From assembly GCA_020053795.1 (NCBI GenBank), contig JAGVMN010000047.1:1-54837 (forward strand): DNA of 54,837 nt, written 5' to 3'. Source of the DNA: Bacteroidia bacterium. GTDB taxonomy: Bacteria > Bacteroidota > Bacteroidia > NS11-12g > UBA9320. The position numbers were made by a program, and so were the translations under genes. The number at the start of each line of letters is the position of its first letter. The stretch's first letter is position 1. Positions 144 to 54,732 of the stretch are shown one piece after another. The notes below the pieces were generated by a model. That model searched no databases. It saw only the letters and a program-made list of their open reading frames with translations, and was not told where the DNA came from.

Positions 144-1619
144 TCAAAAATACACCAACCTTCTCACATTAGAAACATGTTTGGCCAGCCGCACCACCTG
201 TTTGGTATAGCCGAATTCGTTGTCGTACCAAACATAGAGCACGATGTTTCTTTTGTCTGGAGAGACTATGGTAGCCGGGCTGTCGAACACAGCCGGGCAG
301 GAGTTGCCTATGATGTCGCTGGAAACCAGTTCGGGCTCTATGGAGTATTTGATCTGGCTCACCAAAGGTCCTTCCAAAGCAGCTTTTTTTATCAGGGCTT
401 TAACTTCGTCCAATGAGGTTTCTCGCTTCACTGAAAGATTCATGATGGCCAGAGATCCATTCGGTGTGGGAACCCTAACCGCATTGGCAGTCAGCTTGTC
501 TTTCAGTTGCGGAATCACTTTAGAAACCGCTGAGGCAGCACCCGTTTCGGTGATTACCATATTGATGGCAGCCGAACGGCCGCGGCGGAATTTCTTGTGC
601 ATGTTGTCCAGCAGATTCTGGTCGTTGGTATAGGCATGCACCGTTTCTATATGGCCTTTTTCGATGCCCAGGTTGTCTTCAATTACTTTTAAGACGGGCA
701 CTATGGCATTGGTGGTGCAGGATGCCGCCGTGAAAATGGTTTCCTTCTCTATGTCGAAATCATCGTGGTTTACCCCGTAAACTATATTCGGCAGGTCTCC
801 TTTGCCCGGTGCGGTCAGCATCACCTTACTGATGCCCTTGGATTTCAGATGGAGGGCTAAAGAATCTCTGTCGCGAACGATACCGGTATTGTCAATCAGC
901 ACGGCATTCGTAATTCCGTAAGATTCATAGTTGATGTCGTCCGGTTTACTTGCTTCAATCATTTTAACAATCTGCCCGTTGATGATCAGGGCTTTGTTGA
1001 TGAAATCTTCGGTGATATTCCCCCGGAAAGCTCCGTGCACAGAATCCATCCGCAGCAGAGCCGACCTTTTCATAATATCGGCATCGCTGTTAGATCGGGT
1101 CACAATTGCTTTCAGTTTCAACTGTTGTCCTTTGCCGGAAAGCCTGATCAGTTCCCTGGCAACCAATCGTCCGATGCGACCAAAACCATAGAGGACGACA
1201 TCCCGTGGTTCCACTGTCCGGGCATGTTGCCCCATAAAGCCCGTTAGCTTGTCTGAAAGAAAAGCAGCCGTGTTTCCGTAGTTGCCCTGTTCCTGTGTCC
1301 ACTCGTCGCTCAGTTTCCCTATGTCAATCTTGGACGGGGCGAGGTCATCGAACGTCAGCAGTTCGTTGGCCAGTTGTGAGGTTACATAAATATCCACGGT
1401 TTTGCTGATGATGTCTTTGGCGTATTGATGCAGTTTGAGCACCTCTGAACTACTCACGTCAATGAGGGTATTCCTGAAAAACACCAGTTCCACGGATTTC
1501 TCATAGATGAGCCTGCTCACAGCATTGATCAGTTCGGCACTGGCTTTTTCTTTTTCAACCCATGACAGCAATTCCTTGTCATAGGCGTCTTTTTTTGTTT
1601 GAATTGTTTTGGTTTCCAT
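144..1619 (-). CDS. gap: Glyceraldehyde-3-phosphate dehydrogenase, long Bacteroidota form
   Basis: Cytoplasmic enzyme oxidising and phosphorylating glyceraldehyde 3-phosphate to 1,3-bisphosphoglycerate, in glycolysis or gluconeogenesis. Visible are a Rossmann nucleotide-binding motif (LYGFGRIGRLVARE, around residue 145), the active-site motif AASCTTNAIVP with the catalytic cysteine, and the C-terminal WYDNEFGYTKQVVRL. At 491 aa it is longer than the usual 330-340 aa enzyme because of about 140 helical N-terminal residues, typical of the long Bacteroidota type. The ATG at 1617-1619 lies just downstream of a good promoter (1643-1674). The gene stands alone on its strand. Cofactor preference and metabolic direction cannot be read from the sequence. 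Confidence 0.95.
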   Translation of the reverse strand: METKTIQTKKDAYDKELLSWVEKEKASAELINAVSRLIYEKSVELVFFRNTLIDVSSSEVLKLHQYAKDIISKTVDIYVTSQLANELLTFDDLAPSKIDIGKLSDEWTQEQGNYGNTAAFLSDKLTGFMGQHARTVEPRDVVLYGFGRIGRLVARELIRLSGKGQQLKLKAIVTRSNSDADIMKRSALLRMDSVHGAFRGNITEDFINKALIINGQIVKMIEASKPDDINYESYGITNAVLIDNTGIVRDRDSLALHLKSKGISKVMLTAPGKGDLPNIVYGVNHDDFDIEKETIFTAASCTTNAIVPVLKVIEDNLGIEKGHIETVHAYTNDQNLLDNMHKKFRRGRSAAINMVITETGAASAVSKVIPQLKDKLTANAVRVPTPNGSLAIMNLSVKRETSLDEVKALIKKAALEGPLVSQIKYSIEPELVSSDIIGNSCPAVFDSPATIVSPDKRNIVLYVWYDNEFGYTKQVVRLAKHVSNVRRLVYF

Positions 1620-1642
1620 AACAGGTCCGATTTATAACGCAG

Positions 1643-1674
1643 CGAAATTAAGTTTTTCAGTCGCTGAACTCAAA
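1643..1674 (-). promoter_or_regulatory. Bacteroidota-type promoter of the GAPDH gene
   Basis: On the minus strand TTTG (1671-1674) is followed after 20 nt by TAATTTCG (1643-1650), one mismatch from the Bacteroidota -7 consensus TAnnTTTG. It would start transcription about 15-20 nt before the ATG. Confidence 0.6.
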
Positions 1675-1728
1675 TGAAGTCCTCAACTTTTGAGATGATA
1701 TTTCTACGGTTGTCAGTTCAGTGAAACA

Positions 1729-1835
1729 GTTCCGTAGGAACGGGTAATATTGTAACAACGGACTTCAGTCCGTTGAAAAATGCGATAGAAAATTCTGCTT
1801 ATCTAAGAGTTACCAGTAGATAGGGCTTTGCCCTA
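1729..1835. repeat. Cluster of three REP-like palindromes
   Basis: Three short perfect palindromes follow one another: GTTCCGTAGGAAC (1729-1741), CAACGGACTTCAGTCCGTTG (1756-1775, 9-bp stem) and TAGGGCTTTGCCCTA (1821-1835). Palindromes of this style occur as intergenic REP elements mobilised by Y1 transposases (RAYTs); no such transposase is in the window. The next stretch (1848-2010) has an A/T-rich inverted motif (TTTTTTTTAAC / AAAAAG) and a small hairpin GTCCACCGCTGGAC, and looks like a dispersed element rather than a gene. Confidence 0.55.
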
Positions 1836-2025
1836 AACCCAATCATTTCTTTTTTTTAACAAAAAGAAACGAAGTAAAGAAAAGTCAAGAACGAAATCCA
1901 ACCTTCTTTTTTCTTTTGCACGAGCCCACCGCCTCTCAGCCGAAAAAATCAGGTTCGCACATTTCGTTCACGCCCGTCCACCGCTGGACAGACCTTCTCC
2001 GTAAAAAGGATTTAAGTATTATGTT

Positions 2026-2056
2026 TTTGAAGTTATCACGAAATAAAGTAATTTTG
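2026..2056 (+). promoter_or_regulatory. Consensus Bacteroidota promoter of the LVIVD T9SS cargo
   Basis: TTTG (2026-2029), 19-nt spacer, TAATTTTG (2049-2056): a full match to the Bacteroidota sigma-factor consensus, 22 nt upstream of the ATG at 2079. It supports that start codon and shows that the palindromes upstream lie outside the transcript. Confidence 0.75.
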
Positions 2057-2078
2057 ATTTAACCTTAATTGCTGAAAA

Positions 2079-3599
2079 ATGAAATTAATCACTCACAATC
2101 ATTCATTTTCAAATCCGCTAGCTATCGGATCTCAAATTTCTCGAACTGAGCGGAGTCGAAGTGTTAAATTAGCACATTGTCTTTCGATTTTTGTATTGAT
2201 TTTAACCACCAACCAGATCAACGCCCAATGCGGCCAAAAAGTCAACTTACAGGCAGGGTGGGAGATCGCCTATTCTTTTCCGGATCAGGCCATGACCGCC
2301 CATCACGATATCAACGGGAAAGACTTTTTGTATGTCGCGTCAAAGGAAGCCGGACTTAGGATTTACAATCTATCAGACACGACGCCATCATTGGTGAAAA
2401 CCATCCCCATTTCAAGTATTGACAACCTGCATGTGATGTCGGTTAGCCAGTCGGGCAATTACCTATATCTCTCCCTGGGTGATTTCTTTTCGTCCAAACA
2501 GAATACAGGCGTGGCCATTGTGGATGTCACCAATCCTACAACTGCAACTTTGACGGATTTCTGGAAAAACGAACCCGCCACCCAGGGAACCGGAATGGTT
2601 CAGGTGGAGGGAAATTATGCCTACGCAGCCGGAATGGGGAATGGACTTTTTATACTCGACATCAGCGATAAAAGCGATATCAAATTCGTCTCGCAATTCG
2701 TGCCGGACATATCCTATCCTAATCCCAAAAGTCCGGACCCGCTGAAATACAATGCCAGAGGTCTGGCCGTGAGAAATGATGTTGTTTATTTGAGTTACGA
2801 CGCCGGAGGTATCCGCATCATAAACGTTTCAAACAAAGCAAAACCTTTAGAGACAGGGCGTTATTCAAACCCTGTTTTGAACGACAGACCCAGGGCCTAC
2901 AACAATCTGGTGCTGAATGATACCCTTCTTTATGTAGCCATAGATTACTGCGGAATGGAAGTTCTGAGTGTTAAAGATACCGCTAAGATCAGGCAGGTTT
3001 CATGGTGGAATCCGTGGAAATGTGAGACGCCGGCTAACAACTGGTTCAACAGTCCTGGACATACCAATGAGATTGCTTATGACAAAGATTGCAAAGTGGT
3101 TTTCATGTCATCGGGCAAAAGTGAGATGCATGCAGTTAGCGTTGCCGACCCGGCAAAGCCCGATTCCTGTGCCAGCTTTGGGAATACAACCAATAGTCAG
3201 GGTACGTGGGGCCTGGGTCTTTACAAAAACAAGGTCTATACAGCTTATATTTTTGTCCCGTTGGGAATACCGTTTTTCTCCAATTGGTCAGGGATCAAGG
3301 AAATTATCTGGGATAATAAATGCACGAATAGAACAGAGGGAAACCTCAAGGTGAAAAAGGGTTTTGACCTTTATCCGAATCCTGTTTTGGAAGGCAAGGT
3401 CAAACTGAATACCGGAGAAGTGGCAAATATTGTTGTCGAAGTATATGATTATCTGGGAAGAAAAGTTTACCATGAGTCCTTTGAGACCTTGTCTCCCGGA
3501 CAGAAGTTGGACATTGGCTACTTGGAAAACGGGAATTATCAGGTGGTTCTGAAGGCTGCCGATAGAGTAGAGACCGGGCGAATGGTAGTTGCGAGATAA
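2079..3599 (+). CDS. LVIVD-repeat beta-propeller protein with T9SS type A sorting domain
   Basis: Exported protein of 506 aa. An N-terminal signal segment has its hydrophobic core around residues 31-45 and a probable cleavage after INAQ. The middle carries LVIVD-type blades (for example VAIVDVTNPTTATL, LFILDISDKSDI, IRIINVSNKAKPL) expected to form a beta-propeller. The last 85 residues (from FDLYPNPV to GRMVVAR) are a type A T9SS sorting domain, so it should cross the outer membrane and be surface-attached or released. The n-region before the hydrophobic core is unusually long (about 30 residues) and includes RTERSRSV, encoded by a dispersed repeat at 2131-2170. A consensus promoter lies at 2026-2056. 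Ligand or activity is unknown. Confidence 0.88.
   Translation: MKLITHNHSFSNPLAIGSQISRTERSRSVKLAHCLSIFVLILTTNQINAQCGQKVNLQAGWEIAYSFPDQAMTAHHDINGKDFLYVASKEAGLRIYNLSDTTPSLVKTIPISSIDNLHVMSVSQSGNYLYLSLGDFFSSKQNTGVAIVDVTNPTTATLTDFWKNEPATQGTGMVQVEGNYAYAAGMGNGLFILDISDKSDIKFVSQFVPDISYPNPKSPDPLKYNARGLAVRNDVVYLSYDAGGIRIINVSNKAKPLETGRYSNPVLNDRPRAYNNLVLNDTLLYVAIDYCGMEVLSVKDTAKIRQVSWWNPWKCETPANNWFNSPGHTNEIAYDKDCKVVFMSSGKSEMHAVSVADPAKPDSCASFGNTTNSQGTWGLGLYKNKVYTAYIFVPLGIPFFSNWSGIKEIIWDNKCTNRTEGNLKVKKGFDLYPNPVLEGKVKLNTGEVANIVVEVYDYLGRKVYHESFETLSPGQKLDIGYLENGNYQVVLKAADRVETGRMVVAR
2131..2170 (+). repeat. ERSRS-type dispersed repeat inside the signal-peptide coding region
   Basis: TCAAATTTCTCGAACTGAGC followed by GGAGTCGAAGTGTTAAATT. 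The core is an imperfect hairpin (CGAACT / AGTCG around GAGCGG). Related copies lie at 4264-4283 (reverse), 4310-4390 (interrupted) and 52965-53008 (reverse). Here it is read in frame as SQISRTERSRSVKL, adding several arginines to the signal peptide n-region. Confidence 0.75.
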
Positions 3600-4263: not shown

Positions 4264-4390
4264 AACTTCGACTCCGCTCAGTTACCCCTGACACATTTGC
4301 CAAATCCTCATTATCAAATTTCTCGACTGAGCTATTCCGATTACTGACTGAGCGGAGCCGAAGTCAGCCGTCGGAACGAAGTGTCAAATT
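4264..4390. repeat. Composite of ERSRS-type repeats with a long hairpin
   Basis: A reverse copy of the element (core at 4264-4283) is followed by a forward copy beginning TCAAATTTCTCGACTGAG (from 4315) and ending GAAGTGTCAAATT at 4390. The forward copy is interrupted by a 42-nt hairpin at 4335-4376 (TTCCGA-CTGACT / AGTCAG-TCGGAA) that itself contains GAGCGGAGCCGA. The inverted pair resembles a REPIN. The rest of the gap 4093-4406 holds a possible eroded copy near 4226-4245 and no gene. Confidence 0.65.
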
Positions 4391-4394
4391 ATAT

Positions 4395-50272: not shown

Positions 50273-52828
50273 TTAATCCTGTGTATCTTCATTCTCTTTT
50301 TCCGGAGCATTAAGGTTTTCAAGATTCTCGATTGCAGCATTCATACCTTCTTTGGGCTCAAGGTCAATTTCTGTAACTTCCTCACGTTCAACCTTAGCTA
50401 CTGATGCTATCACATCGGTTTCTTTCATTCTGATCAGCCGAACACCTTGTGTGGCTCGGCCCATGGTTCTAATCTGAGCAATTGACATCCGGATCATCAC
50501 CCCTGATTTATTGGTAATCATCAGATCATCCTCGTCGGTAACGTCTTTAATGGATACCAGATTACCTGTTTTGTCAGTTATATTCAAGGTTTTAACCCCT
50601 TTACCTCCCCTGCCTGTTACCCTGTAATCCTCGAGTGGTGAACGTTTTCCGTATCCTTTTTCAGAAACAACCATAATGGTAGTATTTTTCTCCGTTGGGT
50701 CAACGCATATCATCCCAATGACTTCGTCTGTGGTACTTTCCAGCTTCACTCCTTTGACCCCAGAGGCATTCCGCCCCATTGGTCGTACTTTACTTTCATT
50801 GAATCTGATGGCCTTTCCGGATTTTTTGGCCATAATCATTTCCATAGAACCAGTGGTGAGTTTCGATTCTAGCAATTCATCACCTTCTCTGACATTGATG
50901 GCGATAATTCCGTTTGCCCTAGGTCTTGAATATGCTTCTAAAGTCGTTTTCTTGATAATGCCGTTTTTGGTACACATGATGATGAAATTGCTGTTAATAT
51001 ATTCAGCGTCTTTAAGTGTTTTGACGTTTATATACGCTTGGACATTATCTTCTTTGGGTATATTTATCAGGTTTTGTATGGCCCTGCCTTTTGATGCTTT
51101 GGACCCTTCCGGAATTTCGTACACCTTCATCCAGAAGCATCTTCCGTGGTCTGTAAAGAATAATAAATAGTTGTGATTGGAAGCAATGAACATGTGTTCA
51201 GTAAAGTCCTCATCACGATGGGTAACGCCCCTGTTCCCAACTCCTCCGCGTCCCTGGGTTCTGTATTCTGTGAGTAACGTCCGTTTGATATAGCCCATCT
51301 TGGAGATGGTAACCACTACATCGTCATCTGGAATAAGGTCTTCAATATTGATTTCACTGCTGTCAAATTCTATCCTTGTCTTTCTGGCATCGCCAAATTT
51401 ATCTTTGATTTCAGCTAATTCCTTTTTGATCAGGTCCATTCTCAAACCTTCGTTAGATAAAATATCTTCAAGATAAGCAATAGTCTCCATAATTTCTCGA
51501 TGTTCCCCGCGGATTTTATCTCTTTCAAGTCCTGTAAGCTTCTGCAGACGCAGATCCAAAATTGCTTTGGCCTGAATTTCTGATAAACCGAAATTGTTCA
51601 TCAGGCCAAACTTTGCTTCATCAGGTGTTACAGATGCTCTGATTAATTTAATTACCTCATCCAGATTATCAAGTGCAATAAGCAATCCTTCTAAAATATG
51701 GGCCTTTTTGCGGGCTTCATTCAACTCGTATTGAGCCCTGCGGACAACAACCTCATGCCGATGTTCAACAAAGTGAACCATAAGACTTTTAAGATTCAGC
51801 ATTTCCGGCTTGCCCTTAACCAGGGCAATATTGTTCACAGAAAAAGACGTTTGAAGCGGGGTGAATTTATAGAGTTGGTTCAGGACAATGTTGGGAATAG
51901 CATCGCGTTTAAGTTCGAATACCAAACGCAATCCATCTCTGCCCGATTCATCTCGTAAATCGGAAATTCCGTCAATGACTTTTTCGTTTATCAGATCAAC
52001 AGCCTTAACAATTATTTGAGATGGCGTGATCTGATAGGGTACTTCAGTAACAATTATGAATTCACGGCCATTGGGTTGTGTTTCAAAAATAGCTTTTCCC
52101 CTTAAAACAATTCTACCGCGGCCTGTCTCGAAAGCATCTTTTACGCCTTCGTAACCATAAATAATTCCACCGGTTGGGAAGTCAGGGGCTTTTACATGGT
52201 GCATTAATTCTTCGATGGAAATGTCCCTGTTGTCTATATAAGCCAGGATACCATCTACCACCTCAGTTAAATTGTGCGGCGGCATATTGGTTGCCATACC
52301 TACTGCAATTCCGGATGCTCCGTTTACCAATAAGTTTGGAATCTTGGCAGGCATCACTGATGGTTCAGTAAGAGAATCGTCAAAGTTTGGGGTGAAATCA
52401 ACCGTGTCTTTGTCCAAATCAGTCATCATCTCCTCTGCCATCTTCCGCAATCTGGCTTCTGTGTAACGCATGGCAGCCGGTGGATCTCCATCTATAGACC
52501 CGAAGTTTCCCTGACCGTCAACCATCATATACCTGACACTCCATTCCTGGGCCAAACGAACCATGGCGTCGTAAACACTCTGATCGCCATGCGGATGGTA
52601 TTTTCCCAACACCTCCCCTACTATTCTGGCCGATTTTTTATAAGGACGGTTGCTGGCCAATCCCAGTTCAGTCATGCCATAAAGCACCCGACGATGAACG
52701 GGTTTCAAGCCATCTCTAACATCGGGCAAAGCCCTTGAAACGATAACCGACATTGAATAATCAATGTAGGCAGTTTTCATTTCGTCCTCAATGTTTATTG
52801 GAATAATTTTCTCGTTTGAATGATCCAT
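50273..52828 (-). CDS. gyrA: DNA gyrase subunit A
   Basis: ATP-dependent negative supercoiling with GyrB. 851 aa: breakage-reunion domain with [21 protein letters not shown] and catalytic tyrosine in [17 protein letters not shown], coiled-coil tower, and a C-terminal beta-pinwheel. The GyrA box-like [15 protein letters not shown] marks it as gyrase rather than topoisomerase IV ParC. An acidic tail ends the chain (EKENEDTQD). In the quinolone-resistance region, E. coli numbering is preserved and position 83 is Gln ([10 protein letters not shown]), with Asp at 87. Cotranscribed with the TPR gene. Confidence 0.96.
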
Positions 52829-52964: not shown

Positions 52965-53008
52965 AATTTGACACATCGACTACGCTCAGTACGAGAGATT
53001 TGATAATG
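52965..53008 (-). repeat. ERSRS-type dispersed repeat, reverse copy
   Basis: Reverse complement reads ATTATCAAATCTCTCGTACTGAGC... ending GTCGATGTGTCAAATT, matching the copies at 2131-2170 and 4310-4390 in core and in both flanks. The remaining gap (53009-53304) has a direct repeat AAACAGCGAA (near 53147 and 53203) and short ATCAATC/AATCAT iterations, and no gene. Confidence 0.65.
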
Positions 53009-53304
53009 GGAGTTTTGGACAGAAGTCTAATTTGAAAATTTGTGAAGTACAAGCCACATACTCATTAAGTCTTGCGAATAGTCTATATCAAGTCTTCTTT
53101 AAATTTCTTCTGCGGTTGATGTTTTTCTACTAAGCAAATATCGCTAAACAGCGAAAGAGAATGTGGCTAATCAATCATATGAATCAAATTAATCATAGCT
53201 CAAACAGCGAAGGATTAAAGATATTTTCCTTGCAAATGCTGTAAGGGTTTCGTTTGTTTGAAAGCAGATTTACTTTAGGGTTTAAAACAACTAAAATTGA
53301 ACCT

Positions 53305-54732
53305 ATGAAAAAAACAATTGTCTTATTATTCATGTTTGTTTTTTGCAGTGAAATATTTGGTCAGATTTCCAAAGCTAAACAAGTCAACATTGGTAGTGGG
53401 TATTCTGATCCAAGTATCCAAAATCTTTATGAAGATGGCCTCGCTATTGAGTCGGAAATTGGCAATAAGCTTACATTCTACGACCGTAATTTAGTAAATA
53501 AAGGAACAGTTGAATATTCTATAGGCAAGCAACCCAAATGGTGGACGCTTTTTTTTATAAGTGATAAATGGGTATCAACCTCATATTATGATTCTTTGTT
53601 AGATAATTTTGTCATTGTTTCAGGAAGCAGGGCAAATTCGCACCGGCGAATCAGCCTAATCTCACCTAAAACCAACAAAGTTTCATATGTCCATTTGAAG
53701 TATTCAAAGGGGAAAGCGTACATGAAAATTCGCACAAAACTATATAGAGTGGATAAAAACGTCTTTCTAATAACCGTTGTTAAAAAAAACAATACATTAG
53801 GAACAGTTGATCTGAAAACGGGGTTAGTAACACCGATACTGTATTCAGAAGCCTGGAATTCACGGAATATTTTAGAATTATGTCGCATCAATTCAAAGTC
53901 TCTAGCCGTATATTATTCAGAAACTGTAGATAATATAAAAAGAACGAATATCGCTATATTAGATGACGAAGGGAAGGTTCTAAAAGATAAAATCTTTGAG
54001 AATGAGGGCAAAATAATTTCTTCCTTCACTATTTCAGAATTAACCGAGGATCAATTTGCAATTGGGGGAACTTATCGAGAAAAGAATTCACGAATTGAAA
54101 GTGGATTCTATTTATCCAAGTATGTTAGATTGGAACAAGAATTTATGAACTATTATGAGTTCAAATCAATAGATGATTTTTACAAATGCCTTCCGGATGG
54201 AGATGGGAAAACCAGTAACTATTTTGCCAGAGTCCACCCTGTACAGCAATTGGATGGTCATTTTGTTTTAGCGGCAGATTGTTCATATCAACATCAATAT
54301 GAATATCAGACTGAAAAAGGAACAAGAACGAGAACAGAATATATACATACACACGCGGTTATTCTGCAAATTGATGAATCCGGTGAAATTGAAAATGAGT
54401 TTTGCATTCCAATAAAATCTCAACCACACAGTAATGCTCCAGGTCTAATTATTACTCAAGTCAAACTCGGGAAAAAGATCGTATATAGCCAAATCTCTGA
54501 AAAGCTATTTTCAAATTCTTTTTCTGATAATGAATTAAAAGAGAATGATGTAATTCTATTGCCAAAAAATATTCCAACGGAGTCATCAGATGGCACTACA
54601 ATATTTCAACCTTGGTATGGCCTATATTATTATTCTGTCTTAAATATAGATACAGGTAAAAAGAAAGGCCTTTTGAGATTCAAAGTTTATGATTTTGAAC
54701 TTGTCAAATACAGTATTGACTTTGATGAATAA
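53305..54732 (+). CDS. Exported protein of unknown function
   Basis: A 475-aa protein from the ATG at 53305 (MKKTIVLLFMFVFCSEIFGQ signal peptide); a start 51 nt upstream would mask the signal. The body is beta-strand-rich with periodic strands, for example NKLTFYDRNLVNKGTVEYS and RTNIAILDDEGKVLKDKIF, suggesting a beta-propeller. There is no T9SS sorting domain or lipobox. I do not recognise the family. Codon use appears more AT-rich than its neighbours. Confidence 0.7.
   Translation: MKKTIVLLFMFVFCSEIFGQISKAKQVNIGSGYSDPSIQNLYEDGLAIESEIGNKLTFYDRNLVNKGTVEYSIGKQPKWWTLFFISDKWVSTSYYDSLLDNFVIVSGSRANSHRRISLISPKTNKVSYVHLKYSKGKAYMKIRTKLYRVDKNVFLITVVKKNNTLGTVDLKTGLVTPILYSEAWNSRNILELCRINSKSLAVYYSETVDNIKRTNIAILDDEGKVLKDKIFENEGKIISSFTISELTEDQFAIGGTYREKNSRIESGFYLSKYVRLEQEFMNYYEFKSIDDFYKCLPDGDGKTSNYFARVHPVQQLDGHFVLAADCSYQHQYEYQTEKGTRTRTEYIHTHAVILQIDESGEIENEFCIPIKSQPHSNAPGLIITQVKLGKKIVYSQISEKLFSNSFSDNELKENDVILLPKNIPTESSDGTTIFQPWYGLYYYSVLNIDTGKKKGLLRFKVYDFELVKYSIDFDE

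Follow-up and report, generated by a model that had tools for sequence, protein, structure and literature searches.

What is a dispersed palindromic repeat doing between the first codons of a gene for a secreted protein and the hydrophobic core of its signal peptide, and does the protein gain anything from its presence? The question is raised by a gene of 506 codons in a stretch of 54,837 nucleotides from a Bacteroidia bacterium (assembly GCA_020053795.1, contig JAGVMN010000047.1), here called the window. A sequence-only reading of the window had proposed that a mobile non-coding repeat may have been exapted as signal-peptide sequence. A plainer account now appears quite probable, namely that the n-region of the signal peptide received an in-frame insertion of a REP-like palindromic repeat, which has been tolerated there with no gained function.

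The repeat and its hairpin

The host protein begins with MKLITHNHSFSNPLAIGSQISRTERSRSVKLAHCLSIFVLILTTNQINAQC and carries LVIVD repeats (Pfam, E 2.6e-18) and a C-terminal Por_Secre_tail domain at residues 431-503 (E 3.2e-8). The earlier description of the product as a T9SS cargo agrees with this sorting domain, whose above-cut-off match is the one point on which the label turns; a profile search for SprA_N gave no match in this genome, a fragmented and 74% complete assembly of 2.32 Mb, and likewise none in the control genomes. The positions of the gene, the repeat and its neighbouring copies are collected in Table 1.

Table 1. Features of the window that bear on the repeat, in window coordinates
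Feature	Positions	Strand	Basis
Host gene, 506 codons, LVIVD repeats and Por_Secre_tail	2079..3599	+	ORF list, Pfam
Putative inserted block, 84 bp = 28 codons, between AAATTA copies 2082-2087 and 2166-2171	2088..2171	+	Orthologue gap and Met-to-anchor spacing; exact ends putative
Dispersed repeat unit in host gene	2104..2170	+	BLASTN to G000:C44:2512-2586, 79%, E 1.2e-12, query 17-83 of 84
Left palindrome ATCCGCTAGCTATCGGAT, one mismatch short of perfect	2113..2130	+	Sequence; BLASTN to C44, C34 and C1 over query 20-49
Repeat core CTGAGCGGAGTCGAAG, apical part of hairpin, read as T-ERSRS	2146..2161	+	38 genome matches (<=2 mismatches), reversed control 1
Signal-peptide hydrophobic core LSIFVLIL, 3' of repeat	2181..2204	+	Translation, aligned to orthologue signal peptides
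Core copy, intergenic, inverted	4266..4281	-	Core search of window
Long intergenic copy, second core 4348-4363 nested in loop	4310..4391	+	Sequence, core search; end about 16 nt 5' of ATG 4407
Long intergenic copy (CTGAGCGTAGTCGATG) between ORFs 50273-52828(-) and 53254-54732(+)	52965..53008	-	Core search, side-by-side comparison

The 16-nt core of the repeat lies in frame within the intact host ORF, where the DNA that contains it is read as ...SQISRTERSRSVKL, and five of the six frames through it are open. Its location inside a coding region had thus been recognised correctly. Its extent had been placed at 2131-2170 and has to be widened, since in a BLASTN comparison of 2088-2171 with the genome a second long copy on another contig matched over 67 nt, from 2104 to 2170, together with many copies of the core only. 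The left palindrome of this unit is also found elsewhere without the rest of the repeat.

Across the genome, the core has 38 matches with up to two mismatches against a single match for the reversed pattern, and in the window five with up to three mismatches against a mean of 0.13 in shuffles, which together with the long copy on another contig bears out the dispersal that had been claimed. Both of the intergenic copies to which the sequence-only reading had pointed, at 4310-4391 and, on the minus strand, at 52965-53008, are present and intergenic. Copies also recur every 90 bp near contig ends at two loci (L149, G000:C73:1-400; L150, G000:C13:1-300), where a tandem array probably broke the assembly, and at L001 some 50 nt separate a copy (1501-1516) from a gene for small SRP RNA (1567-1661, RF04183). 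Rfam gave no match at the repeat in the window loci; the miRNA/sRNA matches at L167 and L169 are weak, fall below threshold and look like generic hairpins.

The long form of the repeat, seen in the window copies at 2104-2170, 4310-4391 and 52965-53008 and at L119, L124 and L125, reads AAATTTCTCG-ACTGAGC-X-CGAAGTGTCAAATT, in which X is either GGAGT or a whole further hairpin and which is preceded in some copies by the left palindrome ATCCGATAGCTATCGGAT. The flanks of the core vary in sequence between copies yet remain complementary. Outside the core, the 38 own-genome copies have a mean of 3.0 perfect pairs, which drops to 0.98 if the left flank of one copy is combined with the right flank of another; for 71 copies of other genomes the corresponding means are 2.42 and 0.52, and none of 200 shuffles exceeded 0.87. 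Among 69 exact-pattern copies in other genomes, the first stem pair is CG in 24, GC in 20, AT in 10 and TA in 10, and the second is CG in 23, GC in 22 and TA in 15; the stems therefore covary. Pairing of the outer stem in own-genome copies declines across four positions, from 0.97 to 0.69. Because the core is kept while its flanks vary and still pair, the family is, to judge from its sequences, a hairpin whose tip stays constant and whose stem is rewritten but complementary. Within the core, which contains unpaired G-A/A-G positions, position 8 takes any of the four bases and position 11 either T or C, a variation that we take to fit a small loop of the GNA type closed by a G-C/G-T pair. Nested hairpins of the form CTGAGC-[..CTGAGCGGAGTCGAAG..]-CGAAG occur at 4310-4391 in the window and at L002, L013, L153, L125 and L119, as if the loop of one hairpin were a preferred landing or copying site for another.

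A stable palindromic hairpin is evident in the paired stems of the family, with a fold z-score of -7.16 for the copy at L119. Unlike it, the copy in the host gene keeps a single Watson-Crick pair outside the core and folds with z-scores of -0.22 and +1.02, no better than shuffled sequence; it is a degenerate member whose own hairpin has decayed.

A longer N-terminus than in the orthologues

The orthologues are 30-53% identical to the host protein and none is from the same genus, and the insertion was therefore compared at the protein level. In three that were fully read, 24-27 residues precede a conserved Cys, and their alignment with the host protein opens a gap of 26 residues after its residue 3. 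A scan of 48 named orthologues, among which these three apparently also stand, allowed 47 to be anchored (L220, which has no anchor, was dropped). The distance from Met to anchor is 84 residues in the host protein and 52-62 in 43 of the 47, L228, L247, L249 and L261 being those with no Met in that range; none has a Met at 75-95. The orthologues hence lack both the element and the extra residues, and share no common N-terminus with the host protein, as the earlier proposal had anticipated if the element was a true addition. The in-frame gain that it described stands as well; its size does not, since the spacing in the orthologues points to some 84 bp gained in all (2088-2171) and not to 40 nt. 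Subtracting 28 from 84 gives 56, the commonest Met-to-anchor value among the orthologues.

Two copies of AAATTA, at 2082-2087 and 2166-2171, bound exactly 28 codons, and excision between them would leave the junction MKLAHCLSIFVLILTTNQINAQC. If 84 bp had been inserted with duplication of an AAATTA target, the empty site would have read uninterrupted and ATGAAATTAGCACAT-like. The pair need not be a target duplication, however, because AAATTA belongs to the 3' end of the repeat itself in other copies, and the 16 nt at 2088-2103 may be ancestral because BLAST does not match them to the long second copy; the exact ends of the block are accordingly putative.

Given these observations, the REP-like repeat would have landed, in frame, behind the first codons of a gene for a secreted protein and ahead of the part that encodes the hydrophobic core of its signal peptide, so that the n-region grew by about 28 residues (ITHNHSFSNPLAIGSQISRTERSRSVKL). 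Survival of the gene may be owed to an insert length that is a multiple of three and to a repeat core open in five of six frames, and an n-region that is long and basic need not prevent Sec export. More generally, the family would be a selfish element, similar to the Rickettsia palindromic elements (RPEs), that invades intergenic DNA and occasionally genes; it would prefer intergenic DNA and be kept in genes where the frame is open and the site tolerates extra residues.

Other coding copies and the rival readings

Copies in other genes bear directly on what the insertion means. About four of the 38 own-genome copies lie in frame in supported genes, namely the host gene, a WD40 gene (L004), an XdhC-family gene (L153) and a DDE transposase gene (L027). 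In the WD40 gene (G000:C14, ORF 1201-2151, minus strand) the repeat is read in frame as ICQWFPIPIADFDSAQSTTGAIGLHTMEL, and in 28 of the 29 orthologue alignments the orthologue is 18-21 residues short at that point; this copy is internal, so that no argument from start codons applies. The XdhC-family gene (G000:C48, ORF 1462-2436, minus strand) carries a nested copy in its C-terminal tail, and five orthologues cease to align just before it. Own-genome ORFs of at least 90 aa over the copies at L008, L009, L015, L016, L020 and L029 were set aside as unsupported, on the grounds of low codon scores or, for L015, of no Pfam match, and L156 is probably a chance match (two mismatches, no stem).

In other genomes, ORFs of 150 codons or more contain 15 of the 69 copies, of which two share a single doubtful ORF. 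They include copies in TruA (L074) and HsdM (L187), and others in what we take from their sequences to be GHMP-kinase-like genes (one site, three genomes), urocanate hydratase (N-terminal) and TrmD (C-terminal end). TruA and HsdM contain the core with no net length gain relative to solved relatives, and simple insertion therefore does not account for all coding copies; in these two the core may have replaced coding sequence or arisen within it. The conservation of the core in the GHMP-kinase-like genes (16/16 in all pairs, with 2.5% of 16-mers identical in all three) was considered as a sign of selection and rejected as biased, because these loci were found by that very core.

It could be argued that the insertion is a true exaptation, in which the arginine-rich RTERSRS n-region is retained since it alters export, either by slowing Sec targeting or in a role comparable to that of extended signal peptides. 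The intact frame and the placing of R22, R25, R27 and K30 ahead of the hydrophobic core would suit such a role, and the added segment, which includes the peptide ITHNHSFSNPLAIGSQISR, does lengthen the n-region as had been described. However, the hydrophobic core and the cleavage region are ancestral, so that the signal peptide is older than the insertion, and the fully read orthologues, like the others, have short N-termini. Moreover, other copies lie in a WD40 loop, in the tails of enzymes and in a transposase, and no second case in a signal peptide was seen across the 38 copies of this genome and the 69 from others. Copies in such unrelated protein contexts suggest tolerance and not recruitment as a signal. 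Exaptation is thus possible and improbable, with nothing here that speaks positively for it, and "exapted as signal-peptide sequence" overstates what is a lengthening of the n-region and no more.

The remaining rivals turn on whether the repeat is translated, whether it is a repeat at all and whether the gene is alive. Initiation 3' of the repeat, which would make it an untranslated leader element, is about as improbable as exaptation. In its favour is the caution of Di Nocera and colleagues, in a passage of PMC3733652, that most N-terminal REPs may be extragenic with their start codons mis-called. Here, however, the frame contains no ATG, GTG or TTG after 2079 until a TTG at residue 40, which already belongs to the hydrophobic core, so that a start there would leave no signal peptide; the interval between the repeat and the hydrophobic core is free of such codons, and a signal begun at a non-standard ATT (residue 37) would lack a basic n-region. 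Since there is no usable start codon 3' of the element, the repeat would have to be translated if the protein is exported. That the gene is a decaying pseudogene, damaged by an insertion that could have displaced its original start, is more doubtful still given the 506 open codons, the intact C-terminal domain and a codon score (0.157) close to the mean of 0.162 of the 30 long window ORFs used to train it, which include the host gene. Least credible is a chance resemblance of old coding sequence to the repeat: the weak hairpin of the host-gene copy would fit it, but the 67-nt match at another locus, the exact 16-nt core and the 47 anchored orthologues without the extra residues do not. The reading that we prefer is hence that of a near-neutral insertion in a protein that presumably continues to be exported.

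Mobility, known repeat systems and significance

Of 395 sampled genomes of the phylum (Bacteroidota, as the named orthologues indicate), 112, from 65 of 171 genera, contain the pattern CTGAGCGNAGYCGAAG, with up to 164 copies in one genome (G098), whereas its reversed pattern has matches in two of the 395; in the set of relatives, 18 of 97 genomes, the own genome counted, have the 16-mer when one mismatch is allowed. Y1_Tnp is present in 92 of the 112 repeat-positive and 179 of the 283 repeat-negative genomes (Fisher p 0.0003), in a test that ignores relatedness and compares genome sets by eye from two listings. Mobilisation by a RAYT was considered and rejected, as the core, in a weak form, lies near only one of 60 Y1_Tnp loci (which include L104, one of three own-genome Y1 matches) and repeat-rich genomes lack Y1: G098, G200, G097, G416 and G373 have many copies and no Y1_Tnp match. 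The richest of them, G098, bears its core copies equally on both strands of a single contig. We know of no mobilising enzyme for repeats of this type. The epithet "mobile" in the sequence-only reading would follow from the dispersal and from the orthologues without the element, with no mobilising enzyme found.

Searches of open-licence PMC text for the core sequences and the peptide TERSRS, which would miss sequences given only in figures, returned no relevant paper, and broader concept searches of the same text led to the publications cited here and to nothing on this core sequence; its 12-nt middle part appears in two unrelated papers. The closest parallel in behaviour is that of the RPEs of Rickettsia, described in passages of PMC10969869 and PMC3733652 as dispersed palindromic repeats read in frame in unrelated protein genes, N-termini included, and in the former as about 150 bp long. 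With RPE-1, RPE-4 and RPE-6 the family shares the in-frame dispersed palindromic repeat in genes whose orthologues lack it, as in the host and WD40 genes. It differs in sequence, phylum and unit length (about 67-84 bp here), and only about four of its 38 own-genome copies are in supported genes; the likeness is one of behaviour and not a claim of homology.

The CGTC-tagged REPs (Di Nocera 2013), according to passages of PMC3733652, are small and mostly intergenic hairpins of several phyla including Bacteroidetes, some of them intragenic, with no dedicated transposase as a class; their tag is an unpaired CGTC, TGTC or CCTC at one foot of the hairpin. GTCA precedes the stem in 28 of 69 other-genome copies, as expected of that class, and GTC stands at -6..-4, where the tag has it, in 31 of the 69 and in none of 29 own-genome copies; their stem is of 8-9 bp with a loop of 4-5 nt and a CCA tail, whereas the stem here is interrupted. 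The comparison is with the text descriptions of that class, apart from the consensus sequences in its figures, and the family could be one of theirs. Hairpin repeats in genomes that often have Y1 transposases also recall the REP/RAYT systems, of which a Bacteroidetes TnpA-REP subclass 2.6 exists (PMC6006769, in part); a Y1 transposase flanked by the repeat, a trait of those systems, is seen here at one weak locus of the 60. Formal REP membership fails, with the tag absent in the own genome and no Y1 transposase convincingly linked.

A broader view, which we hold only tentatively and consider on the whole unlikely, is that of a phylum-wide selfish Bacteroidota hairpin family with a constant apical 16 nt, a rewritten complementary stem and nested hairpins. 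Such a family would spread via single-stranded DNA without a linked Y1 transposase, by a copying mechanism acting on the apical hairpin, and would repeatedly enter genes in frame, leaving ERSRS, FDSAQ, LSGVE and STPLS as its footprints in secreted and housekeeping proteins.

Overall, the host-gene copy would place an RPE-like family of protein-coding palindromic repeats in Bacteroidota, far from Rickettsia, and it offers a clean case of a repeat that needs to be translated, as it precedes the hydrophobic core of a signal peptide. With its 164 copies on a single contig and no Y1 match, G098 would be the place to seek the mobilising enzyme. In the annotation of these genomes, peptides such as TERSRS or FDSAQ should be expected as footprints of the repeat.
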